DNA of 64,000 nt, taken from positions 620,001 to 684,000 of the forward strand of contig NC_021184.1 of the NCBI RefSeq assembly GCF_000233715.2. Reading direction: 5' to 3'. Numbering within the stretch: position 1 is the stretch's first letter; each line of letters opens with the position of its first letter. This DNA comes from Desulfoscipio gibsoniae DSM 7213 (GTDB lineage Bacteria; Bacillota; Desulfotomaculia; Desulfotomaculales; Desulfallaceae). Below are positions 22,489 to 54,255 of the stretch, one piece after another. The notes beneath the pieces were generated by a model. It was not told the DNA's origin. It made no database searches and was given only the letters and a program-made list of their open reading frames with translations. Position numbers and translations under genes: made by a program.

Positions 22489-22671
22489 TGAGTGTTCGAA
22501 ATTATATAACCTACATTAGTCAAAAAATTATCACAATCTTTCGCCTATTTAAGGTATATTCAGTCCAACTTCAATATGTTATATTGTTATCAGAAAATAT
22601 GAAACATACTAAAAATTCATAATAGAGATTATATAAATAAAATTGGTATTAAATAGTAGGGGGTATTGCTT

Positions 22672-25603: not shown

Positions 25604-25713
25604 AAATTGTTTTCAAACAGCAATGTTAATAGATATATGGGGTAGATCCTTTTTGATGGGCATTTAAGCCATATACTTTGTGATAACTTTCACATAGGAG
25701 GTGCAACTAAATA

Positions 25714-26874: not shown

Positions 26875-26923
26875 TCAACCAGCATGAAACATTAATTGAA
26901 TTTACCGGGAGGAGGATAACGCA

Positions 26924-27679: not shown

Positions 27680-27708
27680 TGCTTTAATTGGAAGGAGGTT
27701 AAAAGGAT

Positions 27709-28455
27709 ATGCAAGTTAAAGATAGAGTAGCTCTAATCACAGGTTCGGGAGGCGGCATAGGGGAAGGAATAGCCAAGAAACTGGCCAAGTGCGGGGCCAA
27801 AGTAGTAGTTAACGACGTTGACAACACCAAGGTTGACCGTGTTGTGGGAGAAATCCTTGAAGCCGGTGGCACAGCCATGGGTATAGTTGCAGATATAACC
27901 AAACTGGCTGAAGTCGAGTCAATGTTCAATAAAACAGTTGAACAATATGGTCAAATTGACATTCTGGTCAACAACGCCGGGGTAGCCAGGGACAAATCAA
28001 TCAGAAAGTTAACCGAAGAAGACTGGGACATCGTATTAAACGTCAACCTGAAAGGCGCGTTCTTCTGTGCTAAAGTAGCCTCTGAATATATGAGAAATCA
28101 AGGTTACGGTAGAATCATCAATATCTCCTCAAGGGCCTGGCTGGGCGGCCCGGGGCAAGCCAACTACTCGGCATCCAAAGGCGGTATAGTCAGCCTCACC
28201 AGGACACTGGCCCTGGAGCTGGGCAGGAAAGGTGTTACCGTAAACTGTATCGCACCCGGTTTAATCGACACACCACTATGGCAAATTCTTACGCCCGAGA
28301 TCCAAGAACGGCTCAGGAATAAACAACCCGGTAAAGAAATCGGCACCGTTGATGACATCGCCAATGGAGTGCTGTTCTTTGCCGGTGAGGGAGCAGGTTA
28401 CATTACCGGGCAAACTATCTTTATCTGCGGTGGCCGGAGCTTATTTGCGGGTTGA
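27709..28455 (+). CDS. bbsD: BbsD, SDR subunit of the hydroxyacyl-CoA dehydrogenase (copy 1)
   Basis: 248-residue SDR, clearly paralogous to BbsC and colinear with it through the catalytic region: TGSGGGIGE, NNAG, ISSRAW and NYSASK (Tyr153, Lys157). It forms the dehydrogenase with BbsC. ATG 27709 follows GGAGG, 29 bp after bbsC. Copy 2 differs at only two residues near the C-terminus (KEIGTVDD versus KDIGNVDD). Confidence 0.9.
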   Translation: MQVKDRVALITGSGGGIGEGIAKKLAKCGAKVVVNDVDNTKVDRVVGEILEAGGTAMGIVADITKLAEVESMFNKTVEQYGQIDILVNNAGVARDKSIRKLTEEDWDIVLNVNLKGAFFCAKVASEYMRNQGYGRIINISSRAWLGGPGQANYSASKGGIVSLTRTLALELGRKGVTVNCIAPGLIDTPLWQILTPEIQERLRNKQPGKEIGTVDDIANGVLFFAGEGAGYITGQTIFICGGRSLFAG

Positions 28456-28613
28456 TGTAAACTGGTTTAATTTTGAAGGGGTTTTATCCCCTTCCCCTCG
28501 GAAGGGGATACTGGAGTATTGGCAGCTCACACTGGGCTGCCGGTAAGCAGGAACTCTTGGCTTGCCGCGATATAACCAAATGCGGCAGGTGAGAGAGGAG
28601 GTAAAGACACAGA
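28456..28613 (+). promoter_or_regulatory. Structured leader between bbsD and bbsE
   Basis: 158 bp with several self-complementary elements: CCCCTTCC...GGAAGGGG, GGCAGC...GCTGCC, and TGCCGC...GCGGCA just before the bbsE ribosome binding site AGAGGAGG. It could be an RNA processing or stability element. The related leader in copy 2 is duplicated. Confidence 0.5.
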
Positions 28614-29861
28614 ATGGAATCAAAAACAAGTCCACTCGCGGATGTGCGGGTGTTGGAATTGGCCGGTGAGGTTGGCAGTTGTGCCGGAAAGATGTTTGCC
28701 GATCTTGGCGCCGATGTAATTCATATCGAACCGCCTCAAGGTGACCCGGCTAGAAGGTATCAACCTTTTTACAAAGATGTGCCCAGTACCGAAGGAAGTC
28801 TTGAATATCAGTACTTTAACACCAACAAAAGAGGTATGGTCCTGGATATAACCACCGAGGAAGGTAAGGAAATATTTCTTAAACTGGTAAAAACAGCCGA
28901 CATCCTTATCGAGAACGAACGCCCCGGTTACCTTGACCAACTGGGACTGGGCTACAGTCAATTAAGCGCTGTAAACCCAAAGCTTGTTCATGTAGCCATA
29001 ACCCCCTTTGGGCAGGATGGCCCGTATAAAGATTTTCCGCAGTCGGATCTGGTATGCATGGCTATGGGTGGCTTTTTATACCTGGCCGGCAAAGATGATG
29101 AAAAACCCTCCCGGGCATACGGCGATCAAGCATATATGATGGGTTCACTGTATGCGGCAATGGGAAGTATCATCGCCCTGTATCATGCTGAAGCAACCGG
29201 AGAAGGACAGTTTCTGGATGTTTCCATGCAGGAGAGCGTATCCACCGCCCTGGAAAACGCGGTGCAATACTATGACCTGGAAGGTATAATCCGCAGGAGC
29301 TTAATCGGTGCGGAAGCCGGATATGGTACATATCCCTGCCGGGACGGGTATATCTTTGTAATGGCGGCCATGGGTAAAAACCGCTACCTGTGGGATCCCT
29401 TCGTTGATTGGCTGATCGAAGATAAAATTGAAGGCGCTGAAGTTCTAAGGGGCGATGAATGGTTGGACCCGCTGTATCGCCGCAAAGAGGAATCGGTAGA
29501 AACATTCAAGAAAATCGTTGAACCTTTCCTAATGAATAAAGATAAGCTGTTTTTATATGAGGAAAGCCAGCGCCGCAAATGCTGTGTTTTCCCCGTGAGC
29601 AGCCCCAAGGATGTTTACAACAATCCCCAACTGCAATACCGGAAATTTTTCAAAACAATGTACCATGAAGCACTGGGGGGCGAGATCCATTATCCCGGTC
29701 CTGCTTATGATATGACTGAGATGAAGTGGGAGCTGAGTAAACCGGCTCCGGTTTTCGGGCAGCACACCAGTGAGATTCTGCAGGAATTGGGGTATACACC
29801 TGATCAAATAGCAGTGCTGGTGAAAGGGGGTGTAGTGGTTGTCAAAGAAGATGCCGCTTGA
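28614..29861 (+). CDS. bbsE: BbsE, succinyl-CoA:benzylsuccinate CoA-transferase subunit (copy 1)
   Basis: 415-residue type III (CaiB/BaiF) CoA-transferase. It has GADVIHIEPPQGD, an Asp at the catalytic place in RAYGDQAYMMGSLYAAM, and GEGQFLDVSMQE. With BbsF it moves CoA from succinyl-CoA to benzylsuccinate, so activation needs no ATP. ATG 28614 follows AGAGGAGG. Its last 23 bases overlap the start of bbsF. It differs from copy 2 at a few places (RRY/RAY, GYL/GCL, CRDGYI/CWDGYV). Confidence 0.92.
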   Translation: MESKTSPLADVRVLELAGEVGSCAGKMFADLGADVIHIEPPQGDPARRYQPFYKDVPSTEGSLEYQYFNTNKRGMVLDITTEEGKEIFLKLVKTADILIENERPGYLDQLGLGYSQLSAVNPKLVHVAITPFGQDGPYKDFPQSDLVCMAMGGFLYLAGKDDEKPSRAYGDQAYMMGSLYAAMGSIIALYHAEATGEGQFLDVSMQESVSTALENAVQYYDLEGIIRRSLIGAEAGYGTYPCRDGYIFVMAAMGKNRYLWDPFVDWLIEDKIEGAEVLRGDEWLDPLYRRKEESVETFKKIVEPFLMNKDKLFLYEESQRRKCCVFPVSSPKDVYNNPQLQYRKFFKTMYHEALGGEIHYPGPAYDMTEMKWELSKPAPVFGQHTSEILQELGYTPDQIAVLVKGGVVVVKEDAA

Positions 29862-31059
29862 TGGAATTATTGTAGCCGACTTTACCTGGGTAGGAGCCGG
29901 TCCCATAGCCACCCGGTTCTTGAGCGAATATGGTGCCAAGGTGATTAAGATTGAAACAAAAAGCAAGCCTGAAATACTGCGGATGACGGGACCATTTAAA
30001 GACGGCATACCCGGGGTAGATCGAAGCGGCTATTTCAGCAACCGCAACCCCAATAAACAAAGTATCTCTTTAAATATGAAACACCCTAAAGCCCGTGATG
30101 TCGCAGCCCGGATAATTGAAAAGAGCGATCTGGTAATTAATAACTTCAGACCAGGGGTTATGGAAAAATGGAAGTTGGGCTACGAAGACGTTAAAAAGAT
30201 TAAGCCAGATATCATATTTGTCACCATGTCAATGCAAGGATCATCCGGTCCGCACAGCTCTTACATGGGATTCGGGGCCACGCTTAACGCCCTGGTCGGT
30301 TTCAACCACCTGAGCGGTTTTCCCGACCAGCCTCCTTTCGGTACGGGAACAAACTACTCCGACCACGTTGCAGTGCCGACCCATACAATTTTTGCCCTTA
30401 TGGCGGCGTTCAGACACCGCAATAAAACCGGTAAAGGGCAATTTATTGAAATCCCGCAGTCGGAAGCAGCGATTTGCATGAAACCGGTTGCGGTCATGGA
30501 TTATGCCGTCAACGGCCGTGAACAAAGCCGCATCGGCAACAGGCATCTCAATGCGGCACCCCACGGGGTTTACCGGACATCGGGCGATAAAAGGTGGATC
30601 GGCATAGCCGTATACAATGACAGCGAATGGGAGTCCCTGAAAAATGTAATGGGTAATCCGGCGTGGGCCAATGACCCCAAATTCGCCACCAAAGAAGGGC
30701 GGATGGCCAACCAGGATCAGCTGGACAGCATGATTGAAAAATGGACCAGTGGGCAAGACGGCCATGAACTGATGCAAAAATTGGCCGGCAGCGGAGTGCG
30801 GGCCGGCATGGTGCTAAATGCCAAGGATATGTTGGAAGACCCGCAGATGCAAGCAAGGGGCCACTGGGTTTACCTGGACCACCCGGAAATAGGGGTAAGC
30901 GCGTATAACGGTTGTCCAGTCCACATGTCCAAAACGCCTGCCCAGTACAAAACAGCCGCGCCTTTACTGGGCCAGCATACTGAGGAAGTAATGAAGGAAT
31001 TTTTAAATATGGACGACCGGGAGTATAAGCAATTAGAAGCTGATCAAGTGTTTGCATAA
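29839..31059 (+). CDS. bbsF: BbsF, succinyl-CoA:benzylsuccinate CoA-transferase subunit (copy 1)
   Basis: 406-residue type III CoA-transferase, paralogous to BbsE, with the catalytic-type Asp in GTNYSDHVAVPTHTIFAL and GKGQFIEIPQSE. TTG 29839 is chosen because GAAAGGGGG lies eight bases upstream inside bbsE; ATG 29851 is the alternative. The protein is identical in copy 2 and I saw no base differences in the stretches compared. Confidence 0.92.
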   Translation: MSKKMPLDGIIVADFTWVGAGPIATRFLSEYGAKVIKIETKSKPEILRMTGPFKDGIPGVDRSGYFSNRNPNKQSISLNMKHPKARDVAARIIEKSDLVINNFRPGVMEKWKLGYEDVKKIKPDIIFVTMSMQGSSGPHSSYMGFGATLNALVGFNHLSGFPDQPPFGTGTNYSDHVAVPTHTIFALMAAFRHRNKTGKGQFIEIPQSEAAICMKPVAVMDYAVNGREQSRIGNRHLNAAPHGVYRTSGDKRWIGIAVYNDSEWESLKNVMGNPAWANDPKFATKEGRMANQDQLDSMIEKWTSGQDGHELMQKLAGSGVRAGMVLNAKDMLEDPQMQARGHWVYLDHPEIGVSAYNGCPVHMSKTPAQYKTAAPLLGQHTEEVMKEFLNMDDREYKQLEADQVFA

Positions 31060-31069
31060 CACTACAGCG

Positions 31070-31152
31070 ATGGTGCCAGGTGTTGAAAGGTTGAAAGTTG
31101 AAAATGAAGACGATCAGGGGTAATGGCTCAATAAGTAATTTTCGCTGTAATA
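31070..31152 (+). repeat. Dispersed island repeat R1
   Basis: Starts GGTGCCAGGTGTTGAAAG, continues with TTGAAAG units, then GACGATCAGGGGTAATGG and ends TAATTTTCGCTGTA. It fills the bbsF-bbsG gap and is repeated in the same place in copy 2 (57869-57951). Confidence 0.85.
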
Positions 31153-31204
31153 ATAATAAAAAACCATATTTACCGGGTTACTTTTAACATAAGGGGGAGC
31201 ACCT

Positions 31205-32410
31205 ATGGATTTTTCCTTACCTGAAGAGTATGTAATGCTAAAACAGATGGTGCGCAAGTTTACCGAAAAAGAAATGTTTCCACTGGAACAAACCATTATC
31301 AACCGGGAAGCGGAAAGAGGTCTGTCGGACACGCCCGTCATTCCCCCCGAAGATGAAAAGAGGCTGCTGGAAAAAACAAATGAATTAGGCCTATGGGGTA
31401 TCGACGTCCCGGAGAAATTCGGGGGGCAGGAACTGGGCTACCTGGCCAAGGTCATTGTGGTGGAGGAGATGAACCGTTCCATTGTTCCTTTGACGCTTCC
31501 TCCCGATGCACCGAACCTGAATTATTTACTGTCCTGCTGCAATGAGCAGCAATATGAAAAATACCTCTTGCCCTATGCTCGGGGAGAAAAAATATCCGCC
31601 CTGGCTATGACCGAGCCCAACGCGGGCACCGACGCCGGCGGTATCCAATTGCGCGCCGACCGCCGGGGAGATAAGTGGGTATTAAACGGCAGCAAAATGT
31701 TCATCAGTTTTGCCCATAAGGCCGATTTCTTCATCACCATTGCGGTATCGGATAGGGAAAAGGGCAAAAGGGGCGGTTTTACCGCCTTCCTGGTGGATAA
31801 GAACACACCCGGCCTGACTGTTGTCCGCAATATTCCGGTTATCGGAGAAATGGTATCCTATGAGCTTGTTTACGATAATGTGGAACTGGATGAAAGTCAA
31901 GTACTGGGTGAGGTTGGGCAGGCTTTTATCCCACTGCAGAACCGCTTTGGCGTGCGCCGTATGGAGCTGGGGGCCCGCTGCTGCGGACTGGCGGACAGAC
32001 TGATTAAATTAATGATTGAACAAGCCAATATTCGAACCACTTTCGGCAAGCCCCTGGCGGATCGCCAGGCTGTGCAGTGGTGGATCACCAATTCAATGAT
32101 GGACCTGCATGCCGCGCGGCTGATGGTTTATCATGCCGCCTGGAAAGCGGACCAGGGGATTAAAGATTTGCGTTTGGAAGCAGCCATGGTCAAGGTATTT
32201 TGTACCGAGATGCTTACCCGCATAGCGGACCGGGCAATTCAAGTGCATGGCGGACTGGGCCTAAGTAAGGAAATGCCCATTGAATACATCTACAGACTGG
32301 TACGTATTTTCCGCATTGTAGAAGGCCCGTCCGAGATACACCGCTGGCTGGTGGCCAGGGAATTAACCAGGAATAACAAAGTTTATGATACATTTGCACT
32401 GGAGCGCTAA
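31205..32410 (+). CDS. bbsG: BbsG, benzylsuccinyl-CoA dehydrogenase (copy 1)
   Basis: 401-residue acyl-CoA dehydrogenase, a flavoprotein that oxidises benzylsuccinyl-CoA to phenylitaconyl-CoA and passes electrons to ETF. The catalytic base is Glu373 in VEGPSEIHRWLVAREL; ALAMTEPNAGTDAGG and RTTFGKPLADRQAVQ are FAD/substrate motifs. ATG 31205 follows AAGGGGGA. The first two thirds match copy 2 nearly perfectly and the last third carries scattered differences, so a conversion tract probably ends near 31.9 kb. Confidence 0.93.
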   Translation: MDFSLPEEYVMLKQMVRKFTEKEMFPLEQTIINREAERGLSDTPVIPPEDEKRLLEKTNELGLWGIDVPEKFGGQELGYLAKVIVVEEMNRSIVPLTLPPDAPNLNYLLSCCNEQQYEKYLLPYARGEKISALAMTEPNAGTDAGGIQLRADRRGDKWVLNGSKMFISFAHKADFFITIAVSDREKGKRGGFTAFLVDKNTPGLTVVRNIPVIGEMVSYELVYDNVELDESQVLGEVGQAFIPLQNRFGVRRMELGARCCGLADRLIKLMIEQANIRTTFGKPLADRQAVQWWITNSMMDLHAARLMVYHAAWKADQGIKDLRLEAAMVKVFCTEMLTRIADRAIQVHGGLGLSKEMPIEYIYRLVRIFRIVEGPSEIHRWLVARELTRNNKVYDTFALER

Positions 32411-32419
32411 CACTGCAGA

Positions 32420-32525
32420 GAATTGGTACCGGGTGTTGAAAGTTGAAAGTTGAAAGTTGAAATATAATCGCCGGGGAAAAGGAAAATACCTGCGGGCAGT
32501 TGTTTAATAGGTAATTTTCGCTGTG
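32420..32525 (+). repeat. Dispersed island repeat R2 (divergent)
   Basis: A variant beginning GGTACCGGGTGTTGAAAG with four TTGAAAG units, ending TAATTTTCGCTGTGC. It separates bbsG from bbsH in copy 1; copy 2 has only a 47-bp gap there and no repeat. Confidence 0.75.
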
Positions 32526-32594
32526 CTGCTAATTTAAATTTAAATTTTAAAAGTATTAAAAATATAAGATAAATATGAGGAAGGGGAATGAAGA

Positions 32595-33362
32595 GTGGGC
32601 GTACTTTTTGAAAAAGATGGTCATGTGGCCGTTGTCACCTTAAACCGGCCGGAAGCTTTAAACGCTTTGGATCCTGAATCCTGGGAAGAGTTAAAGCAAA
32701 TTTGGTACGAGATAAAAACCGATCCGGAAATTAGAGTGACTGTTTTAACCGGGGCCGGGGAAAAATCATTCTGCACAGGCTCGGACATGAAGAAAACCAT
32801 GCCCCCCAAGGAGAATTTTGCTTCCACTTATTTTGAAACCGAAAGCTTAATTGCGCCAATGGAAATGTGGAAACCAATCATCTGTGCCATCAACGGCTAC
32901 GCCATCGGTGGCGGCCTGGAAATGGCCCTTGCCTGCGATATCCGCATAGCATCCTCAAAAGCCTCTTTTGGCTTATCGGAAGTTAAAGTGGGCAGCCTGC
33001 CCGGCCTTGGTGGCACACAGCGCCTGCTCCGTGCCATACCACCGGCCATTGCTATGAAGATGCTTTTAACGGCTGAGCGTATTAATGCTGAGGAGGCATA
33101 CCGGATCGGCCTGATCAGTGATGTTGTGGAGCCCGATCAGCTTTTAGACTACGCCAAACAAATGGCCAAGAAAATCGCCGGCAATGCCCCGTTATCGGTA
33201 AAAGCAGCCAAGCAGGCAGTTGTTATCGGCGCCGACCTGCCCCTCAGGCAAGGTATGGCCTATGAAAACCTGCTCTGGGGAATACTCCGGGACACCGAGG
33301 ATAGGATTGAAGGCCGCGTAGCATTTGCTGAGAAGAGACCTCCAGAATACAAGGGCAGGTAA
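32595..33362 (+). CDS. bbsH: BbsH, phenylitaconyl-CoA hydratase (copy 1)
   Basis: 255-residue crotonase. Both catalytic glutamates of enoyl-CoA hydratases are present, in AIGGGLEMALACD and FGLSEVKVGSLPGLGGTQRL. It hydrates phenylitaconyl-CoA to the hydroxy intermediate used by BbsCD. GTG 32595 follows AAGGGG; an ATG at 32588 is out of frame. Less similar to copy 2 than bbsB-G are (for example ENFAS/ENYAS, IPPAI/ISSAI). Confidence 0.92.
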   Translation: MGVLFEKDGHVAVVTLNRPEALNALDPESWEELKQIWYEIKTDPEIRVTVLTGAGEKSFCTGSDMKKTMPPKENFASTYFETESLIAPMEMWKPIICAINGYAIGGGLEMALACDIRIASSKASFGLSEVKVGSLPGLGGTQRLLRAIPPAIAMKMLLTAERINAEEAYRIGLISDVVEPDQLLDYAKQMAKKIAGNAPLSVKAAKQAVVIGADLPLRQGMAYENLLWGILRDTEDRIEGRVAFAEKRPPEYKGR

Positions 33363-33676: not shown

Positions 33677-33865
33677 GTGGCTACTTGTGCAGAGTGCAAA
33701 TCATTTTTTGCAATCCCTGAAAACGCGGATGATTTTAAACCGGGGAAAGGTGATTGCGTGCGTGAGGAAAAGGACCAAAAGGGTAAGTACTGGTTGTCAA
33801 AGCCCGTCATGGGCAACGTGGCAGCGGATAACTGCAAATACTTTATGAAAAAGCTGACCAATTAA
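33677..33865 (+). CDS. bssC: Gamma subunit (BssC-like) of glycyl radical enzyme 1
   Basis: 62 residues with four Cys: CAEC at 4-7, GDCVREE and NCKYF. The sequence CAECKSFFAIPENADDFKPG...GKYWLSKPV matches BssC, which carries a HiPIP-like [4Fe-4S] cluster and stays bound to the alpha subunit. Start is GTG 33677 after GGAAAGGGTGG. The alpha gene follows 116 bp later. Very similar to the gamma subunit of module 2. Confidence 0.9.
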   Translation: MATCAECKSFFAIPENADDFKPGKGDCVREEKDQKGKYWLSKPVMGNVAADNCKYFMKKLTN

Positions 33866-33981: not shown

Positions 33982-36414
33982 ATGCCGATTACGGAAAGAA
34001 CCAAAAGGCTTAAGGCCAGGTGCCGCTGGAAGCATACCTCTGCAGGTGAATTTGTAGATGAAAGCATCAGGACCGGACTTGAACGGGCCAGATTAATCAC
34101 CGAGTCTCACAAACAAACCACAGGCGAGCCAAGGGTTATCAGAAGAGCAAAAGGGTTCGCCAACATCCTAAACAATATCACTGTAATCATCCAGGAAGAT
34201 GAGCTGATCGTTGGGGATCACGTGGAGCACCCGGAGGCTATCCCCCTGTATCCTGAATTAAGTTATTTTGTTACCCTTGACTTGGTTAGGAGCAAATACT
34301 GCCCGGAAGAACTAAAAGAAGAAGCCATGGAAATTGCAAAATACTGGGAACCCTACACTATGCAGCGTAAAGGTGAAGCCTATTATACGCCGGATGAGCT
34401 GGAGCGGGCTTATCAATTCAGTACGGTTGAAGCCCCTGCTTTTGTAACAGGGTTCAACAGTATTGTGCCGCCATACGAAACCGTCCAGGAAGACGGCCTG
34501 CTTAAAAGAATTGAAATAATCCAGGGCAAAATAGATGAGGCGATGGCGCAATTAAAGAAAACCCCCTGGAACGCCACGGAAAACCTGCCATTAATGGACA
34601 AAATCAATAACTGGCGGGCCATGATTATTGCCGATGAGGCTGTGATTGCCTGGGCCAGAAGGCATGCCAGGCTGGCCAGGATAATTGCGGAAAACTTTGA
34701 AACCGACCCGGTCAGGAAAAAAGAACTTATGGAAATCTCGGATATCTGCCACAGGATACCCGCGGAACCCGCAAAAGGCTTAAGGGACGCCGTGCAGTGC
34801 AAGTGGTTTGTATTCCTAATTGCCCACGGTCTGGAGCGTTACGCCAGCGGTTATGCGCAGCAGGAAGATAAGCTGCTTTATCCCTATTACAAGATTAGTG
34901 TCATAGATAAGTCATTCCAGCCTATGACCCGGGATGAAGCCCAGGAGCTTGTAGAATGTGAAAGACTTAAAATCTCTGAACACGGCAGTTGTAAAGACAG
35001 GGGACACCGGGAAGCTTTTCCGGGATCGAATGACCTGTTCATCCTTACCATAGGCGGCATTAAGCCGGATGGAAGCGATGCCTGCAATGATATGACGGAT
35101 ATCATACTTGACGCGGCACTGAGCGTTAGGACCACCGAACCTTCAATCGCCTTCCGGTGGCACCCCAAGGGAAGATTGGAGACCAAAAAGCGTGTGTTTG
35201 ATTGCATCGCGGCCGGACTTGGCTATCCCTCAATTAAGCATGAAGATATTAACTACTCCCAGTTGATCAAGTGGGGCGCCACCCCTGAGCAAGCCCGGGA
35301 TTGGCTCCTGGTGCTGTGTATGTCGCCCGGTGTGGCCGGTAGAAGGGCGACCCAGAAATGCAGGACAGAGGGCGGCGGCTGCGTATTTGTCGCCAAGTGT
35401 TTTGAAATCGCACTGTATAACGGTTATGATGCTACGTTTGCCAACATCCAGCAAGGTCCGGAAACAGGCAATGCCGAGGAATTCGAAACTTTTGATCAGC
35501 TTTTTGAGGCGTTCCGCAAACAAATTCAATATGCCATCAGCCTGGCGATCAAGGGCAAAGATATATCCAGAATGATAGAGCAGCACTACCTGCAAATACC
35601 GTTTATATCCAGCATTGACGACGGCTGTGTGGAAGCTGGCCAGGACGCATCGGGATACGTCGAGCTGCCCAACCCCTGGCACAATATCATATTGAATACA
35701 GTTGCCTCCGACTCCCTGGTAGCCATGAAGAAGTTAATATTTGACGAAAAGAAATATACCATGCAGGAACTGATCACGGCCTTAAAAGCAAACTGGCAGG
35801 GATACGAAGAAATGCGGCGTGATTTCTGGAATGTAACCAAGTGGGGCAATGACGATCCCTACGCGGATGAGATTACCGTCAAGTTCTATGACATGCTGGC
35901 TGAAGAATTCTCCAAAGTTATCATGTATTCCGGCGTTGCCCCGATGCCTCTGGGCCAATCCGTGGGCCATTATGTCACTGTCGGGTCGAAAGTAGGGCCC
36001 ACTCCCAATGGCCGGCTGCACGGTGAGGCAGCGGACGACGGCGGTATCTCACCCTACATGGGTGCGGATAAGAAAGGCCCCACCGCTGTGCTTAAGTCTG
36101 TCTCCAAAGTTAATGCCAGAAAATTCAAGGGTATGCTGCTGAACCAGCGTCTGTCTGCAGAGCAAATGAGAAGTGAAAGAGGATTCGACCTCTGGATGGA
36201 TTACATGGATACCTGGTACGACCTGGAAATAGACCATGTCCAGTTTAACGTTGCCAGTACCAAGGAACTACGGGCTGCTCAAGAAGAACCCGAAAAATAT
36301 CCCGACCTGATTGTCAGGGTTGCCGGATTTAGCGCCCGTTTCGTTGATCTATCCAGGTACGCTCAAGATACCATTATCGCTCGAACCGAGCAATCATTTG
36401 GCGTTGCCCAATAA
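33982..36414 (+). CDS. Glycyl radical arylalkylsuccinate synthase alpha subunit 1 (divergent BssA/HbsA type)
   Basis: 810 residues; adds a methylated aromatic to fumarate. Radical site Gly782 in RVAGFSARF, catalytic Cys446 in VLCMSPG. Aligned to Thauera BssA (from memory), conserved residues are Arg461 (508), Trp566 (613), Ile570 (617), Gln659 (707) and Val661 (709). Changed ones are Phe158 for Tyr197 and Ala345 for Ile384, and GVAPMPLGQ replaces GGPVMPTGQ. About 43 N-terminal residues present in BssA and in alpha 2 are missing; TAA directly before ATG 33982 excludes extension. A segment just before the Cys loop is also shorter. Substrate probably not plain toluene; a cresol or other substituted toluene is possible. 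Confidence 0.88.
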   Translation: MPITERTKRLKARCRWKHTSAGEFVDESIRTGLERARLITESHKQTTGEPRVIRRAKGFANILNNITVIIQEDELIVGDHVEHPEAIPLYPELSYFVTLDLVRSKYCPEELKEEAMEIAKYWEPYTMQRKGEAYYTPDELERAYQFSTVEAPAFVTGFNSIVPPYETVQEDGLLKRIEIIQGKIDEAMAQLKKTPWNATENLPLMDKINNWRAMIIADEAVIAWARRHARLARIIAENFETDPVRKKELMEISDICHRIPAEPAKGLRDAVQCKWFVFLIAHGLERYASGYAQQEDKLLYPYYKISVIDKSFQPMTRDEAQELVECERLKISEHGSCKDRGHREAFPGSNDLFILTIGGIKPDGSDACNDMTDIILDAALSVRTTEPSIAFRWHPKGRLETKKRVFDCIAAGLGYPSIKHEDINYSQLIKWGATPEQARDWLLVLCMSPGVAGRRATQKCRTEGGGCVFVAKCFEIALYNGYDATFANIQQGPETGNAEEFETFDQLFEAFRKQIQYAISLAIKGKDISRMIEQHYLQIPFISSIDDGCVEAGQDASGYVELPNPWHNIILNTVASDSLVAMKKLIFDEKKYTMQELITALKANWQGYEEMRRDFWNVTKWGNDDPYADEITVKFYDMLAEEFSKVIMYSGVAPMPLGQSVGHYVTVGSKVGPTPNGRLHGEAADDGGISPYMGADKKGPTAVLKSVSKVNARKFKGMLLNQRLSAEQMRSERGFDLWMDYMDTWYDLEIDHVQFNVASTKELRAAQEEPEKYPDLIVRVAGFSARFVDLSRYAQDTIIARTEQSFGVAQ

Positions 36415-36506: not shown

Positions 36507-36695
36507 TTGAAGTGCACTAAATGTGGGTACGAAGATGATATGGTAAAGTTTAAGCGTGCAAGTATGTCCCTTGGTTGTTGTTCGGGGCAGCACTTGAGAA
36601 CTTGTCCCAAGTGCGGGACCAATAATGCATGCAACCCTCTCATGGAAGAATTGTGGGAGGAACAGCAAAAACAAAAAGCTGATAACGAGAGTTAG
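36507..36695 (+). CDS. Double-CxxC zinc-ribbon small protein in GRE module 1
   Basis: 62 residues from TTG 36507 after ATAGGAGGAG. It has CTKC at residues 3-6 and TCPKCG later, plus a GCCSG turn; a Lys/Glu-rich helix follows. The pattern suggests one zinc or iron site. It does not resemble BssB or BssC and has no counterpart in module 2. It lies between the alpha and beta genes, so it may be an additional subunit or an assembly factor of enzyme 1. Not recognised beyond this. Confidence 0.7.
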   Translation: MKCTKCGYEDDMVKFKRASMSLGCCSGQHLRTCPKCGTNNACNPLMEELWEEQQKQKADNES

Positions 36696-36738: not shown

Positions 36739-36936
36739 ATGCCAAAATGTGCAGACTGCAAATGGGTTATGGTCCATACAGTGGACCCCATGAAAGGTAT
36801 ATGCACCAACAAAAGGATTAAACTTGCCGAAACCCAGGCAAATCAGATGGCCATAGCCAAACACGTGGTAAACATGGATGATGAAGCTTGCGATAAATTT
36901 GAAGCAGGGAAAATGACCTTTAGAGAAATGGTTTAA
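36739..36936 (+). CDS. bssB: Beta subunit (BssB-like) of glycyl radical enzyme 1
   Basis: 65 residues with CADCKW at 4-8, GICTNKR and ACDKFEAGKMTFREMV. The order CxxCKW...DPxKGxC...CDKFExG matches the beta subunit of module 2 (CLKCKW...DPSKGQC...CDKFEEG), although this one lacks the 20-residue N-terminal leader. BssB carries a [4Fe-4S] cluster and covers the active-site entrance. ATG 36739 follows TAGGAGG. Confidence 0.85.
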   Translation: MPKCADCKWVMVHTVDPMKGICTNKRIKLAETQANQMAIAKHVVNMDDEACDKFEAGKMTFREMV

Positions 36937-37092: not shown

Positions 37093-38031
37093 ATGGATCC
37101 TCAAATAAAAATACCTTTAATAACTAATATACAACGGTATTCCCTGGATGACGGTCCCGGCATTAGAACGGTGATTTTTATGAAAGGATGTCCTTTGCAC
37201 TGTCCATGGTGCCATAACCCTGAGAACATATCGCCGAAAATGGGATTGTACTTTCATGAGGATAAATGTGAGCGGTGTGAAAGATGCGCTGCGGTTTGCC
37301 CGGAAAAGGCAATTACATTGCCCGGGGCCGATGGAAGCCCGCCCATAAGGGACCGGGATAAATGTACACAGTGTATGCAATGTGCTTTAGCATGTCCCGC
37401 CGGTGCATTGGAACAAGTTGGCGAGGTTTTGACCATCGAAGAAATAATCAGAGAAGCTATCAGTGATATGCCTTTTTACAGGAAATCAGGTGGAGGGGTA
37501 ACCATAAGCGGGGGAGAGCCGCTGTTATTTCCGGAATTCACTTTGGAACTGGCACAGGAACTGAAAAAGAAAGTAATCCATGTGGCCGTGGAAACCAGCG
37601 GATTTGGAAGTTGGGAACATTTAAGCCAGATAGCGACCTATGCGGATATGTTTTTATATGACATAAAACACATGAATTCGCTAAAGCACCAGGCCTTTGT
37701 GGGCGTTCCCAATAATATTATTCATGATAATCTACGGAAGCTGGTTAAGCTGGGTAAAAAAGTGATTGTCCGCGTTCCGGTGATTCCCGGCTTTAATAAT
37801 GAAAAGCATAATTTTGAAATGATGGCTGAATTCCTAAGGACCCTGGACGGTCCTGTGCAGGCAGTTGATTTGCTCCCCTTTCATAACTTTGGAGAGGCAA
37901 AATATAAACAATTAGATAAAGACTACAATTATAAAGGCCGGCCCAATATGGAAAAGGAAGAGGTAGTGCAATTTTCTGAGATATTGCAAAATGTTATTCG
38001 GACTACCATCGGAGGAGTAACCATTCAGTGA
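37093..38031 (+). CDS. bssD: Glycyl-radical-enzyme activase 1 (BssD-like)
   Basis: 312-residue radical SAM enzyme that makes the glycyl radical on the alpha subunit. SAM cluster Cys33, Cys37 and Cys40 (GCPLHCPWC); two inserted ferredoxin-like motifs at Cys59/62/65/69 and Cys91/94/97/101 give the auxiliary clusters typical of X-succinate synthase activases; GGGVTISGGEPL follows. ATG 37093 has GGGGTGGGG upstream. In module 2 the activase instead lies at the end of the operon and is clearly less similar than the other subunits. Confidence 0.93.
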   Translation: MDPQIKIPLITNIQRYSLDDGPGIRTVIFMKGCPLHCPWCHNPENISPKMGLYFHEDKCERCERCAAVCPEKAITLPGADGSPPIRDRDKCTQCMQCALACPAGALEQVGEVLTIEEIIREAISDMPFYRKSGGGVTISGGEPLLFPEFTLELAQELKKKVIHVAVETSGFGSWEHLSQIATYADMFLYDIKHMNSLKHQAFVGVPNNIIHDNLRKLVKLGKKVIVRVPVIPGFNNEKHNFEMMAEFLRTLDGPVQAVDLLPFHNFGEAKYKQLDKDYNYKGRPNMEKEEVVQFSEILQNVIRTTIGGVTIQ

Positions 38032-38097
38032 CGCACTCAGCAAAAAACAGGGTGTAGAGTTATTGCTAATTAATTGGCCAAAAGGAGTGCATACTTA

Positions 38098-38952
38098 ATG
38101 AACATCAATGATAACATTTTAATTCCCGAGCAAGATCCGTTTTTCTATGTTAGCAGGGAAACCCGGGATATGTTGAATAAAATAAAAATAATCTCCGATA
38201 AACACCCTGTTAATGTGTTGGTTACGGGAAAGCAAGGTTGCGGCAAGTCTTCTCTGGTTCGCCAGTTCGCCGCGGTTTATAACCGCCCCCTGGCTAGTTT
38301 TCAAATCGGTATTTTAGCCGAACCGGGTCAGCTGTTCGGTGAATATGTACTTAAAGAGGGTGAAACAAGCTATCGCCCTTATTTATTTGCCGAAGCCATT
38401 CAGACTCCCTATTGTGTAATTCACCTTGAAGAAATCAATAGGCCCGAACACCCCAAAGCATTGAATATGCTGTTTTCATTGCTTGCTGAAGACAGGCAGG
38501 TTTGGATGGACGAATTGGGGATGCTGAAAGTTGCCCGGGGGGTTACCTTCTTTGCCACCATGAACGAAGGTGAAGAATTCATTGGTACCGAAATGCTGGA
38601 CCCCGCCCTAAGGGACCGCTTCTATACCGTTTTAATGGATTATATACCGGAAGAAGTGGAAGTTGAGGTTTTGACCAAAAAAACAGGTATCAGCAGGGAA
38701 CAATCCCGTGAAATTATAGAGATAGTGAATAAACTGAGGGGACATTCAGAAATGCCCATGGATGTTTCAACCAGAACCAGCTTGATGATTGCAGAACTGG
38801 TGGCTGCCGGGGCCACGATAAGGGAAGCCATCATCTTCAGCATGCAAACAAACAAGGAGTACCTGGAATCCATTCTGCTAACCCTACACCTTGAGAAAAG
38901 ATACACCGAAGCTGAAAACACCGGTGCATACGTACTTTTTACCAGCGATTGA
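38098..38952 (+). CDS. bssE: MoxR-family AAA+ ATPase (BssE-like) 1
   Basis: 284 residues. Walker A GKQGCGKSS (Lys50), Walker B VIHLEEINR, sensor 1 FFATMNEGEEF and the arginine-finger region LDPALRDRF. TutH/BssE proteins of this type are needed for toluene growth and are thought to assemble or remodel benzylsuccinate synthase. ATG 38098 follows AAGGAG. It is nearly identical to the module 2 copy while the VWA gene behind it is much less so. Confidence 0.9.
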   Translation: MNINDNILIPEQDPFFYVSRETRDMLNKIKIISDKHPVNVLVTGKQGCGKSSLVRQFAAVYNRPLASFQIGILAEPGQLFGEYVLKEGETSYRPYLFAEAIQTPYCVIHLEEINRPEHPKALNMLFSLLAEDRQVWMDELGMLKVARGVTFFATMNEGEEFIGTEMLDPALRDRFYTVLMDYIPEEVEVEVLTKKTGISREQSREIIEIVNKLRGHSEMPMDVSTRTSLMIAELVAAGATIREAIIFSMQTNKEYLESILLTLHLEKRYTEAENTGAYVLFTSD

Positions 38953-39013
38953 CGGCCGGTTATTGGAAATGCAGGTAAATGTGGCGCGTGGGTATGTGAA
39001 AGGAGTGCAAACA

Positions 39014-40726
39014 ATGCTGGCCGGCCAAAACGATCAACCGGAAAATGTGATCAAGACTTTTTTAATACCAGGTGAAGAGGGGTATTCCGAGTTCTGGAGA
39101 CGGAATAAATCCCCTGTGGAATCTTTGGAACTGGCCCACCTTTTAGATGCCATCATTAAAATAGCCAGCTTTATAGGCCGAAATGTGGGTAATCTGATCT
39201 GGTCGGGAATGAATAATACTATTGCATCAAATGATATTGTTCTGGATTCCTCGTTGGTATTGGGAAAGTACCCCGTCCCCGGGAATAAAACCGACATAGT
39301 CGTTGGCATGGCAGTCCATGAGGCCTACCAGCGGGTGGAGTGGTGTGAATGGGTAAGAACCCTGGCTTTGGAGAAAATGGGAAAAGTAGCGCCGCTTCTT
39401 TTAAATAAATTTAAACTATTTGTGGAAATGGCTGAGCGAATATACGTGGATTTGGTGGCCAACCGGTCGGTTTTGGGCTTATATGCGGAAAAACACCGTG
39501 ATTATAGATTCAAAGACGCAGCCATGTCCTTTGATCTACCTCCTTCATTTGATGAATTGCTGTATTTCTGGTGGCTGATGGCTGCCAATAACAGCGGCTG
39601 TAAATATAAAGAAAATTTTACCGATGAAATGTATGGGCGTTACAGCGATAACCTGGCACAGTACTATGCAAAACCGCTGTGTCTGCTGAATTCAATTATC
39701 CCTTTTTTAATTGAAGAATGCCCTAAAATACACAGTGTTGTTGACCGCTGCGCCTACAGAACCGATCTTTACTTCAGCATTTGGGAAGAGCTGTATAATT
39801 ACACCCGGACCTGGGTGGCCAGCGAGTGGGACCTGCTCTTTGTGATCAAAAAATCGGATATCATTGAAGCGGCCGGTGTCGCTGAAAAGTCGGAAAAACC
39901 AATGCTAGCCCCCATGGGGCAAGAAATAAGAGCTCATTTAAAAAAGAAAGAAATGGATTATACAGATGCCGTCAAGGTAATCTGTGATGATGATGGGGTA
40001 GTACCCATAGCAGTTAACGATATCGTTCTGCCGCTTAAGTGCAATCTTGATAACCAGCTCCTATATAGATTGCAGGCTGTTTTAAGATCGCATACTGAAA
40101 AAAGAAAAATCACCAGCCGCGGTATGAAAAGCGGCAAGATTGATACAAGGCGTTTATACAGGGCACCCGTGAAGGGAAATATATTTATGCATCATAAGAC
40201 CAATTACGAAATGACCAATGACATTATCCTTGTCGTTGACGCTTCGGGCTCAATGGGTGAACTAAAGTGGGAAACTATCCAAATGGTTTATGCCACGCTG
40301 TATAAAGTTTTAATTAGCTACAATAAAAATACCAGGGTATTTGCCTATAACGATTCCAAAGGAAAATGCGAATTAACCGATCTCTCCCCCCAAAAAGGCG
40401 AACTGTATACCGTTCGCCCCCAGGGTAAGACGGCTTCAGGCGAGGCGATTATCGCCACGGCAATGATGCTCAAAAGAAACAAAAACAAATACCCATATAT
40501 TATCCACATCACAGACGGTGCCTCCAACTGGGGAAGTGATGTGAAATATGCCATCGATTATTGCCGCAAGAAAAAAATAAGCTTGATGACGTTGGGTTTT
40601 GGATGCAAGCCGGAAAGCAAAGAGGCATTGAAGAAGGAATACGGCAACCAGGTACAGTTTATTGACAACCTGAATGAAATGCCCAGAAAATTCGGCAGCC
40701 TACTGGCTTACGGTAAAGTCATTTAA
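39014..40726 (+). CDS. VWA-domain partner of the MoxR ATPase, 1
   Basis: 570 residues. The N-terminal two thirds are helical and unrecognised; the last 190 carry a von Willebrand A domain with a complete MIDAS: DASGSMG, the downstream Thr in GKTASGEA and ITDGASNWG. MoxR and VWA proteins work as pairs, as in CbbQ/CbbO and NorQ/NorD, where the VWA half hands the target to the ATPase. Here the target is presumably the glycyl radical enzyme. ATG 39014 follows AAAGGAG at eight bases; earlier in-frame starts lie inside bssE. It occupies the position where bssF would be expected, but I do not equate them. Confidence 0.85.
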   Translation: MLAGQNDQPENVIKTFLIPGEEGYSEFWRRNKSPVESLELAHLLDAIIKIASFIGRNVGNLIWSGMNNTIASNDIVLDSSLVLGKYPVPGNKTDIVVGMAVHEAYQRVEWCEWVRTLALEKMGKVAPLLLNKFKLFVEMAERIYVDLVANRSVLGLYAEKHRDYRFKDAAMSFDLPPSFDELLYFWWLMAANNSGCKYKENFTDEMYGRYSDNLAQYYAKPLCLLNSIIPFLIEECPKIHSVVDRCAYRTDLYFSIWEELYNYTRTWVASEWDLLFVIKKSDIIEAAGVAEKSEKPMLAPMGQEIRAHLKKKEMDYTDAVKVICDDDGVVPIAVNDIVLPLKCNLDNQLLYRLQAVLRSHTEKRKITSRGMKSGKIDTRRLYRAPVKGNIFMHHKTNYEMTNDIILVVDASGSMGELKWETIQMVYATLYKVLISYNKNTRVFAYNDSKGKCELTDLSPQKGELYTVRPQGKTASGEAIIATAMMLKRNKNKYPYIIHITDGASNWGSDVKYAIDYCRKKKISLMTLGFGCKPESKEALKKEYGNQVQFIDNLNEMPRKFGSLLAYGKVI

Positions 40727-41010: not shown

Positions 41011-41631
41011 ATGGAAGAATTAATCAAGAAAATTATTAATCTTGAGTGGAATGCTTTTACAAATGTACAGAATATCGGAGGAAAAGCCAGCTGCCAGGAA
41101 GATGCACAAACTTTTAAAACCATGCGCACAGGCCAGTTTATTAGCTGGTCGAATAACGCCCTGGAAAGCTATTTAATCGACCTTCTACAAGCCAAGGCCA
41201 ATGGAAGGGATCTAATATCAGAAAAATATGCCCGGATGATGAAATCAACCTCACCGGACGATTATGCCCGGATAGAACACTTGCTGCCGGGTTTGGACCC
41301 GGAGGTCACCCAGTTGATGGATAAAATCATGGAAATTGAACTGGCCTGGCAGGAAGAGGTTATCAAAGCATACCCTTATGTCACCAAACAAGGAAGGCCA
41401 CTCTATAGCCGGGAGGATAACAAATTTTTCACATCCTTTGAAACATATTTGCGCAGTGAACTGGCTACTTATTCAAGCAAAACTCTTAAATTGTATTATG
41501 AAAACCGGGTTGATCAAAAGAACAAAGATATTAACGGCGCCAAAATAACCCTGGAGTATACGGTCAAGCAGTATGGCTATAAATCCTTGGAAGATGCGAA
41601 TAAAAAAATAGCCCTGGTAAGTAGGCAGTAG
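41011..41631 (+). CDS. DUF4125 family protein
   Basis: 206 residues. The start (EELIKKIINLEWNAFTNVQNIGGKASCQEDAQTF) and RTGQFISW, with the later GRDLISEKYARMMKSTSP stretch, match the uncharacterised DUF4125 family. Soluble and mainly helical, with no catalytic motif I can name. ATG 41011 lies behind a weak GGGAGAG. It is the last gene of module 1 and has no intact counterpart in module 2, but a frameshifted scrap of the same gene lies about 290 bp downstream. Confidence 0.75.
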   Translation: MEELIKKIINLEWNAFTNVQNIGGKASCQEDAQTFKTMRTGQFISWSNNALESYLIDLLQAKANGRDLISEKYARMMKSTSPDDYARIEHLLPGLDPEVTQLMDKIMEIELAWQEEVIKAYPYVTKQGRPLYSREDNKFFTSFETYLRSELATYSSKTLKLYYENRVDQKNKDINGAKITLEYTVKQYGYKSLEDANKKIALVSRQ

Positions 41632-41996: not shown

Positions 41997-43964
41997 TTAA
42001 AATTTTTCCGGTAAAGCTTTTTTCATTTTCCTCCATAACGTGGCTTGGCTTATGTTTAACATTTGGGCCATTTTTTTCCTGTTCCAATTAACTTTTTCTC
42101 CTACCTTAAGCAAAAGATCACGTTCCGAAGCAAACCTAGCCTCAGATAAAGTTTGTTTATTGATATGAACAGTGTCAAGGGGCTCTGATTTTGCATGGCT
42201 GAGTGTAAGTCCGCATCTTATTTCCTCAAAGAGTTCTTCCAATGGGAAAGGGGAGGGTTGATGATAAGTTGTAAGGGCAACATATCTTTCAGCAAAGTTT
42301 TCCAATTCGCGAACATTTCCGGGCCAGGGATAATTAGCTAATAATGATAAATCTTTAAGAGTATTGATATTAGTATGTGATTTTATCGCAAACTTTTTTA
42401 CAAAGTAATTAAATAATAAGGGTATATCTTCCGGGCGTTCCCGCAGTGGAGGGATACGCAAAAGAAGGACATTTAAGCGAAAATATAAATCCTGACGAAA
42501 TACCCCTTCTTGTATAGCCGTCTCAAGGTTGTTGTTGGTCGCGGCGATAATTCGGACATTAATAGGTATTATTCTTGTTCCTCCCAATCTTGAGATTTCC
42601 TTCTCCTGAATAACCCGTAATAATTTTGCTTGCAATTCAAGGGGCATGGTACCTATTTCGTCAAGAAAAAGTGTCCCTTCATGCGCTAGTTCAAAAATCC
42701 CTTGTTTGCCAGCCTTTTTGGCGCCTGTAAAAGCGCCTTCTTCATAACCAAAAAGTTCACTTTCAGCTAGCTCTTTAGGTAAGGCAGAACAGTTAACAGA
42801 AACAAATGGACCCTTAGCTCGTGAGCTTAGTTTATGGATACTATGGGCAAATATTTCTTTTCCCGTACCTGTTTCGCCATAAAGAAGAACTGTTGAATCG
42901 GTATTAGCAAAGGCGGACGCTTTTTCTTTAGCCAGTCTTATGGTTTTGCTGCTACCAATAATATCATTAAGGGAAAACTTGGCAACCAAACCCTTGTTAG
43001 ACAATTGCTTACGTATTTTATATTCGATTGATTGTAACTGTGAAGTTTCTGTAAAGGTGATAATAGTTTTGTTTTGGGGATCTTTTAAGGAAGAACGAAC
43101 TATATTGGCTACGATGCTTCCTTCTTTGCGTGGAAGCAATAGCCCAAGATGGGGGGTATTTATTTGATCATCAACTGCCGTTTGTAAAGAAGCAACACCA
43201 TCAGGAGAAATAATGTCATGTAATACATTAAATAAATCTTTGTTCAACAGATTAGCCTTATCAGCTTTAAAAATCTGACAAGCACAGTTGTTAATATAGG
43301 TAATATTGTGGTCTTTATCAAGGAAAATAAACCCTTCGTGCAATAAATCCAGTAATAATTGGAATTCTCTAATGTACTCTTTTTCCTTTTGAATAGCTCT
43401 GAACACATCAAGTGCCTTCCAAATGGACCGAATAATTGTATCCTTTTTCATTTGTATTATTTCGTAGGAAAGCGATAAGTCCGAAGCATGGCTGGCAATC
43501 AATACGCCACCTACAACAACATCGGGATTAAACCTTTTGACTTCATGAATGGTATCGAGCGCATCTTGTCTGGAATGATAATAAAATTTAGCAACCTCAA
43601 TACCAAGAACACGCGGCCAATCGCTTAGTTCATATTCCTGTGTATGGTGAGTAACTAGGGCAATTCTTCGACCTTTATTACGAGCGGTTTTTAAAGCATC
43701 TAAAACGTTGGAAAAGGTAACGGAGCGAGCTATAACAGGTATATTAAGGTGTTCAGATAAAAGTTCTACTGTATCAACGCGACTAATAAGAATATCACAC
43801 TTTTTTTCGAGCTTTTTTGCGGCGGCCAATATTTCTTTTTCATCCAGTGGGTCAGGTTGAGCAATCTCCATGCTCCCTATATCGTTCTTAAAATCTTGAT
43901 AAGCTTCTGAACAAATATCGATTAAATGAGAATGGAAAATAATATGACCAATTCTTGGAATCAT
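41997..43964 (-). CDS. PrpR_N-PAS-AAA+ sigma-54-dependent activator
   Basis: 655 residues: PrpR-type N-terminal sensor (about 1-195), a PAS domain (about 200-310), and an AAA+ domain with Walker A GETGTGKE, the sigma-54 contact loop GAFTGA ([17 protein letters not shown]), Walker B TLFLDEIG, and a Fis-type HTH ([20 protein letters not shown]). PrpR_N domains usually sense small organic acids or CoA-pathway metabolites. The gene is divergent from module 2, whose upstream region has a sigma-54 promoter motif, so it is the probable activator of module 2 and of bbs copy 2. Confidence 0.9.
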
Positions 43965-44587: not shown

Positions 44588-44776
44588 GTGGCTAATTGTG
44601 CAGAATGTAAGTCGTTCTTTCCAATTCCAGAAAGCGAGGATGATTTTGAACAGGGTAAAGGTGATTGTATACGTGAAGAAAAGGACCCAAAAGGCAAGTT
44701 TTGGTTGTCTAAACCGGTAATGAGTGATATGCCAGCAGATAATTGCAAATATTTCACTAAAAAACTTGCTAATTAA
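44588..44776 (+). CDS. bssC: Gamma subunit (BssC) of benzylsuccinate synthase 2
   Basis: 62 residues with CAEC, GDCIREE and NCKYF, the cluster ligands of BssC, and the conserved GKFWLSKPV. Start GTG 44588 follows AAAGGAGG. First gene after the sigma-54 promoter, 33 bp before the alpha gene. Confidence 0.92.
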   Translation: MANCAECKSFFPIPESEDDFEQGKGDCIREEKDPKGKFWLSKPVMSDMPADNCKYFTKKLAN

Positions 44777-44809
44777 CCTTTTAATTTATATAAGGAGGGT
44801 TATTTGTTT

Positions 44810-52154: not shown

Positions 52155-52260
52155 AATTTTACTCGGGATACTCTATTAAATTTATAAAAATACATGTCCT
52201 TTTAAAATATTAAAGCATACACTTTTTGACAATTTTCATATGGGAGGTGCAACAAAATAA

Positions 52261-53421: not shown

Positions 53422-53470
53422 TCAACCAGCATGAAACATTAATTGAATTTACCGGGAGGAGGATAACGCA

Positions 53471-54226: not shown

Positions 54227-54255
54227 TGCTTTAATTGGAAGGAGGTTAAAAGGAT

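Follow-up and report, generated by a model that had tools for sequence, protein, structure and literature searches.

Which substrate is served by the first of two succinate synthase clusters in Desulfoscipio gibsoniae DSM 7213? The window analysed here is a 64,000-nucleotide stretch of this genome (NC_021184.1, positions 620,001 to 684,000), and the gene in question encodes a catalytic glycyl radical subunit, alpha 1 (33982..36414, + strand). The organism, formerly Desulfotomaculum gibsoniae, strain Groll, has an assembly of one single contig (4,855,529 bases); it grows on m- and p-cresol, and growth experiments gave no sign of toluene degradation (PMC4148979). Where it treats these genes, the same paper of 2014 already named two copies of hbsABC with the following beta-oxidation genes, suggested different specificities of the copies for m- and p-cresol, and left the assignment open (PMC4148979). 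The cresol idea is thus in print for D. gibsoniae, with neither copy assigned, and by gene content the two clusters of the window would be the two published copies. From its sequence features, we lean slightly toward alpha 1 being the catalytic subunit of a hydroxybenzylsuccinate synthase (HBS), likelier for p-cresol. Directly behind alpha 1 stands an open reading frame (ORF) for a delta-like protein, which we regard as the more novel part of the locus.

Catalytic core and substrate pocket of alpha 1

The coordinates of alpha 1 were found to be correct, and the 810-residue product matched the PFL-like and Gly_radical families of Pfam. Its best match in the PDB was the alpha subunit TutD/BssA of Thauera benzylsuccinate synthase (BSS; 4pkc), followed by MasD (9o8u) of the alkane enzyme (1-methylalkyl)succinate synthase (MASS). 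With BssA numbered so that the cysteine of VLCMSPG is 493, the alignment matched Cys446, Gly782 and Arg461 of alpha 1 to BssA 493, 829 and 508, so the catalytic Cys, the glycyl Gly and the fumarate Arg are in place; the fumarate-site residues Arg461, Ser160, Asn568 and Gln659 are kept in the sequence. The AlphaFold model (pLDDT 88.8) had 4pkf, 5bwd and 4pkc as top Foldseek matches, with template modelling (TM) scores by query of 0.96-0.97. In structure alignment with Thauera BSS (4pkc, 4pkf, 5bwe, 9pzj) the identity was 59%, and the likeness extends to the catalytic and fumarate residues, the gamma and beta subunits, the activase, and AAA and VWA genes as in BSS-clade loci, L158 for example. 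Because an in-frame TAA (33979-33981) immediately precedes the ATG, the short N-terminus of alpha 1 is real, and an annotation artefact through a wrong start is ruled out. Two orthologues were found, one 88% identical in the Desulfotomaculum metagenome-assembled genome (MAG) BL5_bin.2 and one 78% identical in the Desulfosporosinus BRH_c37 MAG (L004). Among named plasmids, 32 records matched alpha, all below 60% identity; the 20 listed held no annotated succinate synthase (best 32%).

A preliminary description of the locus had read Phe158 for Tyr197, Ala345 for Ile384, GVAPMPLGQ for GGPVMPTGQ and a shorter segment before the Cys loop, and the alignment to 4pkc numbered on Cys493 confirmed all four. 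Judged from the same alignment, the most distinctive residues of alpha 1 are three that the description had passed over: Asp339, His342 and His663, which correspond to BssA 378 (Ser), 381 (Tyr) and 711 (Leu). The set Asp378/His381/His711 was found in 3 of 66 aligned synthases, namely alpha 1 and its two orthologues. Since these three proteins agree at 36 of 40 compared alignment columns (differing at 620, 621, 707 and 827), the unusual residues are more than chance. Ala at 384 occurs in the alpha 1 clade (3/3), in L185 and in two alkane-type rows of the 66-row alignment. Phe at 197 was present in 8/28 BSS-clade rows and 8/8 rows of the Desulfobacula/Desulfosarcina cetonica (Hbs) clade and is, on this count, not special to alpha 1. 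Position 617 is Ile in alpha 1, and Glu150 stands at BssA position 189.

The pocket geometry around His663, His342 and Asp339 is read from the alignment and from published roles of the aligned residues. Ile384 is described as facing the ring 4-position, with a smaller residue in enzymes for large 4-substituents (PMC12583861), and in one model the strongest toluene contacts include Ile384, Arg508 and Leu711 (PMC4848970). In all three alpha 1-clade rows Ile384 is replaced by Ala and Leu711 by His, which supports a 4-substituted polar substrate. Of the larger or more polar pocket that had been proposed, the polar part stands, as does the larger space at 384, and the claim fails at 711: by alignment the pocket is more polar than that of BSS and larger at 384, not at 711 (Leu to His). 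The nine Hbs-clade rows all carry Gln189, Phe384, Gly711, Leu381 and Gly378, where alpha 1 has Glu, Ala, His, His and Asp. With Phe384 and Gly711 in that clade, the size rule at 384 is therefore not general.

Phylogeny and the candidate substrate

For the trees, alpha sequences were taken from a scan of named genomes (79 loci, from the best 80 of 171 matches) and from genome sets: 8 genomes holding loci, 86 of the Desulfobacula family, 113 of the class, 4 more, and 30 of the D. cetonica family. Wider sampling, with 399 genomes from L013's order and 395 from L018's phylum (each a subset of a larger group), yielded a single further row, L154. The comparison set is without NmsA, IbsA and limonenylsuccinate synthase sequences, and the trees omit N-terminal columns. 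The 62-row tree leaves out L022 (broken frame), L059 (in pieces), L074/L090 (a 265-residue fragment) and rows alike in the last 400 residues, and limits alkane-type rows to 14 plus MasD; the 47- and 51-row trees drop 15 further chosen rows, which are near-copies and alkane rows.

The results showed that alpha 1, the Desulfotomaculum MAG orthologue and the Desulfosporosinus BRH_c37 protein form a clade at 100/100. The toluene-type BSS clade, with TutD and alpha 2 of the window inside, received 100/100 without alpha 1, and so did the Hbs clade. In a second tree the BSS clade was supported at 100/99 without L185 and at 100/100 with it, alpha 1 lying outside both. The aryl synthases, alpha 1 included, split from the Ass/Mas rows at 100/100. 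The trees thus rule out a place of alpha 1 inside the BSS clade or inside the HbsA clade, and on these trees alpha 1 is an aryl-branch X-succinate synthase that belongs neither to the BSS clade nor to the described HbsA clade. A tree with alpha 1 inside toluene BSS, the outcome that would have overturned the preliminary description, was not obtained; the clustering with HbsA that it had looked for was not found either, as alpha 1 lies outside the Hbs clade and lacks Gln189. When alpha 1 was held together with the Hbs clade, two tests gave approximately unbiased (AU) p values of 0.161 and 0.19, so this grouping is not favoured and not rejected. Grouping alpha 1 with the Ala384 row L185 was rejected (AU p 1.5e-88).

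The HbsA of p-cresol activation is described as a clearly separate branch (PMC13416013). The Hbs clade would consist of 4-hydroxybenzylsuccinate synthases, the HbsA of Tol2 among them, and its Gln189 (9/9 rows) agrees with the Gln189 reported for 4-hydroxybenzylsuccinate synthase (PMC12583861). Several other rows of the alignment are of note in their own right. L185, a Desulfosarcinaceae synthase, is sister of the whole BSS clade and carries Ala384, Met617 and Ala711, with an N-terminal extension and a short pre-Cys segment. L132, L140-L143 and L188 form another group in the aryl branch, most of it Clostridial, which has Tyr617, His385 and an N-terminal stretch of its own. Desulfobacterium TRIP AH-1 has two nearly identical synthase genes (L018, L019) with Ser197, Asn384, Gln385 and Thr617. 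The Hbs-clade genome G062, which we take to be Desulfobacula toluolica Tol2, holds two Hbs-clade alpha genes (L156 and L157), with no beta found near the second. One hbs set is spoken of in PMC4148979 where G062, if it is that strain, shows two alphas.

The length differences between the lines were compared next to the tree. The pre-Cys segment has 14 residues in alpha 1 versus 22 in TutD/BssA, eight fewer; all 29 BSS-clade rows have 22, and the remaining 37 of 66, among them L185 and the alkane enzymes, have 14-15. Residue 2 of alpha 1 aligns to residue 41 of 4pkc, so the absence of the N-terminal part held up and its size, given before as about 43 residues, became about 39-40. An N-terminal motif (aromatic-K-G-K-x-x-E/D-F-P) was pattern-matched in 23/29 BSS-clade rows and L185 and in 0/36 others; it is visible by eye in five of the six BSS rows missed by the pattern, the sixth being TutD, whose compared stretch stops short of the motif. 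The beta subunit has at least 17 residues before its first CxxC in all 24 BSS-clade loci where a beta was found (26 were examined, two being cut by contig ends), an upper bound since it is counted from the farthest start; counted from the nearest start, the minimum is 6. Three residues precede CxxC in 3/3 alpha 1 loci, and three or five in 7/8 Hbs-clade loci, the eighth having no beta nearby. As the long forms are confined to the BSS clade and the extension to that clade and its sister L185, the BSS line probably gained the extension, the long pre-Cys segment and the long beta, and alpha 1 would never have had them. The view of alpha 1 as a remodelled enzyme without an N-terminal wrap thus probably had the direction of change reversed. 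A tie between the N-terminal extension and the long beta was upheld only in part: the L140 group combines its own N-terminal stretch (38-42 residues, from the preceding stop) with a short beta in 4/5 loci, and no beta was found in the fifth.

Several observations support the cresol reading. The short alpha, short pre-Cys segment, short beta, Phe197 and Leu705 are common to alpha 1 and the Gln189-bearing Hbs clade, and a regulator with aromatic-sensing XylR_N and V4R domains lies upstream of cluster 1. A cresol, one of the substrates suggested in the preliminary description, fits growth on m- and p-cresol and not on toluene (PMC4148979) and the position of Ile384 at the ring 4-position (PMC12583861). 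p-Cresol is favoured for alpha 1 because Ala384 would free the 4-position and the polar side chains at 378, 381 and 711 would accommodate a hydroxyl group. In the proposed mechanism, the activase would make the Gly782 radical, Cys446 would take a hydrogen from the cresol methyl, and the hydroxybenzyl radical would add to fumarate; Ala345 would free space at the ring 4-position, and His663, His342 and Asp339 could offer polar partners to the phenol OH. m-Cresol would then be left, as a guess by elimination, to alpha 2, whose pocket is of the toluene type (Ile384, Leu711).

Other observations weigh against this reading. In the best tree alpha 1 stands next to BSS and not next to Hbs (92/84); it keeps Glu189 and has neither the Phe384 nor the Gly711 seen in the Hbs clade. 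Since alkane enzymes have the short pre-Cys segment too, the short form does not identify an HBS. The orthologue L004 carries Glu for Gln707, the state described for MASS (PMC12358834); conservation of the fumarate site is therefore incomplete within the alpha 1 clade. Smaller residues at 384 have also been linked to 4-isopropyl substrates and limonene (PMC12583861). Two 4-hydroxybenzoyl-CoA reductase alpha genes score over the curated cut-off in the D. gibsoniae genome; a reductase over cut-off was found in 10/27 synthase genomes, mostly BSS genomes without an Hbs-clade gene, in 0/8 Hbs-clade genomes and in one of the two other alpha 1-orthologue genomes (G003 yes, G001 no), a spread that makes this enzyme uninformative as a phylogenetic-profile marker of cresol use.

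Three other assignments have to be weighed. The reverse pairing, in which alpha 1 serves m-cresol with its polar residues binding the meta hydroxyl and alpha 2 serves p-cresol, is a minority possibility: both cresols are growth substrates whose assignment was left open (PMC4148979), and since alpha 1 does not have the Gln189 of 4-hydroxybenzylsuccinate synthase, p-cresol need not be its substrate. Alpha 2, however, has Ile384, said to block the 4-position (PMC12583861), and differs from TutD at only 3/22 columns, and the short architecture is shared by alpha 1 and the Gln189 clade. We consider it improbable that the substrate of alpha 1 is a different methyl compound, para-substituted or bulky (p-xylene, p-cymene-like or a terpene), with alpha 2 alone serving the cresols. 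PMC12583861 reports or discusses Ala, Val or Thr at 384 in limonene, 4-isopropyltoluene and Desulfosarcina enzymes; it also describes the limonene clade as nearer the toluene than the p-cresol clade, a place much like that of alpha 1 in the best tree. Yet published growth data and genome analysis name cresols (PMC4148979), alpha 1 does not group with L185, the sole other aryl row with Ala384, its Ile617 differs from the His reported for the limonene enzyme (PMC12583861), and three polar residues at 378, 381 and 711 would suit a phenol better than a hydrocarbon; no support was found for the xylene or ethylbenzene-like substrate suggested earlier. An ordinary Clostridial toluene BSS with drifted residues would account for the BSS-like fold and catalytic residues and for the sister position in the best tree, and seems very improbable. 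Desulfosporosinus Tol-M, of the same phylum, grows on toluene, and its bssA has a pocket different from that of alpha 1. Moreover, alpha 1 lies outside the BSS clade, its unusual residues are kept in three genomes, and D. gibsoniae did not grow on toluene (PMC4148979). An HBS likelier for p-cresol remains our preferred reading of alpha 1. With two known growth substrates, near-identical beta-oxidation genes and two synthases that share 64% identity, this one cultured strain would offer a clean natural experiment on the part of the pocket in ring-substituent specificity.

A delta-like protein beside alpha 1

The delta-like ORF (36507..36695, + strand; 62 residues, TTG start after AGGAGG) lies between alpha 1 and beta 1, about 90 bases from alpha 1, and likewise at the 88% orthologue. 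Its best match in the whole PDB was 9o8u_D, the MASS delta subunit MasE (E 0.0011). The predicted fold (pLDDT 77.6, pTM 0.56), made from an alignment that included alkane-type relatives (30 delta rows, hand-picked and trimmed at CxxC...CxxC), also had 9o8u_D as top Foldseek match, with probability 1.00 versus 0.57 for the next and E 0.063. Cys3, Cys6, Cys33 and Cys36 correspond to residues 3, 6, 32 and 35 of MASS delta; the four Cys are invariant among the 30 rows partly by selection, because the rows were trimmed at that pattern. By sequence and predicted fold, the protein is a homologue of the rubredoxin-like MasE delta. MASS delta is described as without homology to known subunits of the superfamily, its rubredoxin fold is called enigmatic, and roughly 20 residues at its C-terminus form a tail in contact with the glycyl radical domain (PMC12358834). 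The delta-like protein has 62 residues versus 71, without the PWGKSAG-type tail in which many alkane-type relatives end; some alkane-type relatives (L032, L025) are also tail-less. The locus differs from MASS in that alpha 1 is 37% identical to MasD and sits in the aryl branch, with a BssB-type beta; the likeness is the small protein with the same CxxC...CxxC register. The delta-like protein could bind one Fe through its four Cys and may sit at the activase docking site and tune activation, as proposed for MASS delta.

To trace its distribution, a profile of 23 delta proteins from alkane-type loci was run against 7,357 small frames of aryl loci, many of which had only 1.5 kb of flank. Three proteins matched at E ≤1: the delta-like protein of the window (listed also as L003), the orthologous protein, and a protein encoded in the bss locus of Desulfosporosinus Tol-M. 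In the survey of the class, 12/113 genomes had a delta match, 13/113 a synthase and 11 both (hypergeometric 1.6e-12, kinship ignored); 11/16 class delta matches share a contig with a synthase, and 5/16 are on contigs without a synthase match. Delta-like genes lie 4.6-4.9 kb from three Clostridial BSS genes (L005, L092, L102) and 1.5-2.3 kb downstream in four of five class members of the L140 group. Among 30 genomes searched for it, 10 had a delta match. None was found in seven Desulfobacula/Desulfosarcina Hbs-clade genomes, in eight Proteobacterial/Desulfobacterota BSS genomes grouped by tree place and, where known, record titles (G205, G206, G207, G902, G1001-G1004), in G006 and G008, or in three Bacillota BSS genomes (G119, G176, G208); therefore not all Clostridial BSS genes have one. 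No delta-like gene stands beside the orthologue L004. The eighth Hbs-clade genome, G007, pairs its Hbs-clade synthase with an alkane-type synthase that has its own, adjoining delta-like gene (L020, L095). Desulfosporosinus Tol-M has a second delta-like gene (G002:C17:3556-3729) on a contig without a synthase match.

It is unlikely that this ORF encodes a zinc-ribbon protein which stands there by chance and has nothing to do with the synthase. In favour of that view, its E values to MASS delta are weak (those given above), it has a weak Pfam zinc-finger match, the fold model drew on alkane-type relatives, the C-terminal tail is missing, the gene is absent beside L004, and 5/16 class matches are on contigs where no synthase matched. 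Against this stand the co-occurrence in the class, the 11 matches on synthase contigs, the place between alpha 1 and beta 1 in two species, and MASS delta as nearest PDB relative by both sequence and fold. A wider view, which we put forward tentatively, is that Clostridial aryl synthases are often alpha-beta-gamma-delta enzymes, that delta is a module of the wider family which Proteobacterial/Desulfobacterota BSS and HbsA lack, and that alpha 1 is a separately evolved cresol enzyme binding the phenol OH by His/His/Asp, a set found in no other synthase here. No report of a delta in an aryl enzyme was found in the titles and abstract openings of the open-licence papers listed by the searches, and the hbsABC section of PMC4148979 mentions neither a delta subunit nor pocket residues nor a substrate for each copy. 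If true, the presence of delta in a cresol-type cluster, next to a BssB-type beta and lacking the MASS tail, would uncouple the fold from alkane chemistry, and the locus would offer a second system for deleting delta.

Gene order of the two clusters

Cluster 1 runs on the + strand in the order regulator, beta-oxidation genes, gamma, alpha 1, delta-like, beta, activase, AAA ATPase, VWA protein and DUF4125 protein, and the Desulfotomaculum MAG BL5_bin.2 carries its alpha 1 and alpha 2 orthologues on one contig in the same gene order. The regulator (22666..25125), directly upstream of the first copy of the beta-oxidation genes, has XylR_N, V4R, GGDEF_2 and PucR-type helix-turn-helix (HTH) domains by Pfam and a MobR-like N-terminal part (NF041906, below cut-off); a GAF domain is also present, and Pfam gave no sigma-54 AAA match. 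The eight genes of copy 1 (25184..33362; bbs/bhs type, Pfam over cut-off for 7/8) encode a BbsA-like protein, a thiolase, two short-chain dehydrogenases, two class III CoA-transferases, an acyl-CoA dehydrogenase and an enoyl-CoA hydratase; the first scored 114 bits to NF053627 BbsA, below the cut-off of 250. Gamma 1 (33677..33865, 62 residues, BssC/TutF family) matched PF08201 at 107.4 bits (cut-off 25), and the short beta 1 (36739..36936, 65 residues, BssB/TutG family) matched PF18512 at 38.3 bits (cut-off 25.6) and 4pkf_B at E 0.00079. They are followed by the radical SAM activating enzyme 1 (37093..38031; TIGR02494 367.6 bits, over cut-off; TIGR04003 BssD 326.2, below cut-off), AAA ATPase 1 (38074..38952; AAA_5, 94% protein identity to 47784-48662), VWA-domain protein 1 (38891..40726; Pfam VWA) and the DUF4125 protein (41011..41631; PF13526). 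DUF4125 was rejected as an HBS-specific marker, as it also occurs in L013 (a BSS locus of Herminiimonas), L182 and the alkane-type locus L032. Between the synthase clusters lies a sigma-54 activator on the - strand (41997..43964; PrpR_N, PAS, AAA and Fis HTH by Pfam).

Cluster 2, also on the + strand, has the order gamma, alpha 2, beta, AAA ATPase, VWA, activase and beta-oxidation genes. It comprises gamma 2 (44588..44775; PF08201 104.7 bits, cut-off 25), alpha 2 (44804..47410, with ATG at 44810 the likelier start), which the tree places in the BSS clade and which has the N-terminal extension, the long beta 2 (47485..47724; PF18512 140 bits), activating enzyme 2 (50474..51469; TIGR02494 over cut-off, TIGR04003 BssD 385.7 bits, below cut-off) and copy 2 of the beta-oxidation genes (51735..60024), a DNA copy of 25184-33362 with the thiolase recognised by Pfam. 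There is no delta-like gene in cluster 2, and a genome search at E 0.01 found one copy, in cluster 1. Alpha 2 differs from TutD at 3/22 pocket-region columns (614, 620, 705). It had been said to keep the BssA states throughout, which does not hold fully: it reads AGPVMPVGQ, not GGPVMPTGQ; its Val705 is the commonest state of the BSS clade (22/28). The two alphas have 64% protein and 61% DNA identity, and seven beta-oxidation gene pairs (25714-33362 versus 52261-60024) are 91-100% identical in DNA, one of them 100%. These identities suggest a recent duplication or gene conversion of the beta-oxidation genes beside two old synthases. A perfect 21-base inverted repeat, tggtgccaggtgttgaaagtt, with arms at 33435 and 33474 (33435-33494), lies between the beta-oxidation genes and gamma 1, and an IS1634-family transposase is located upstream of cluster 1 at 17407-19131.

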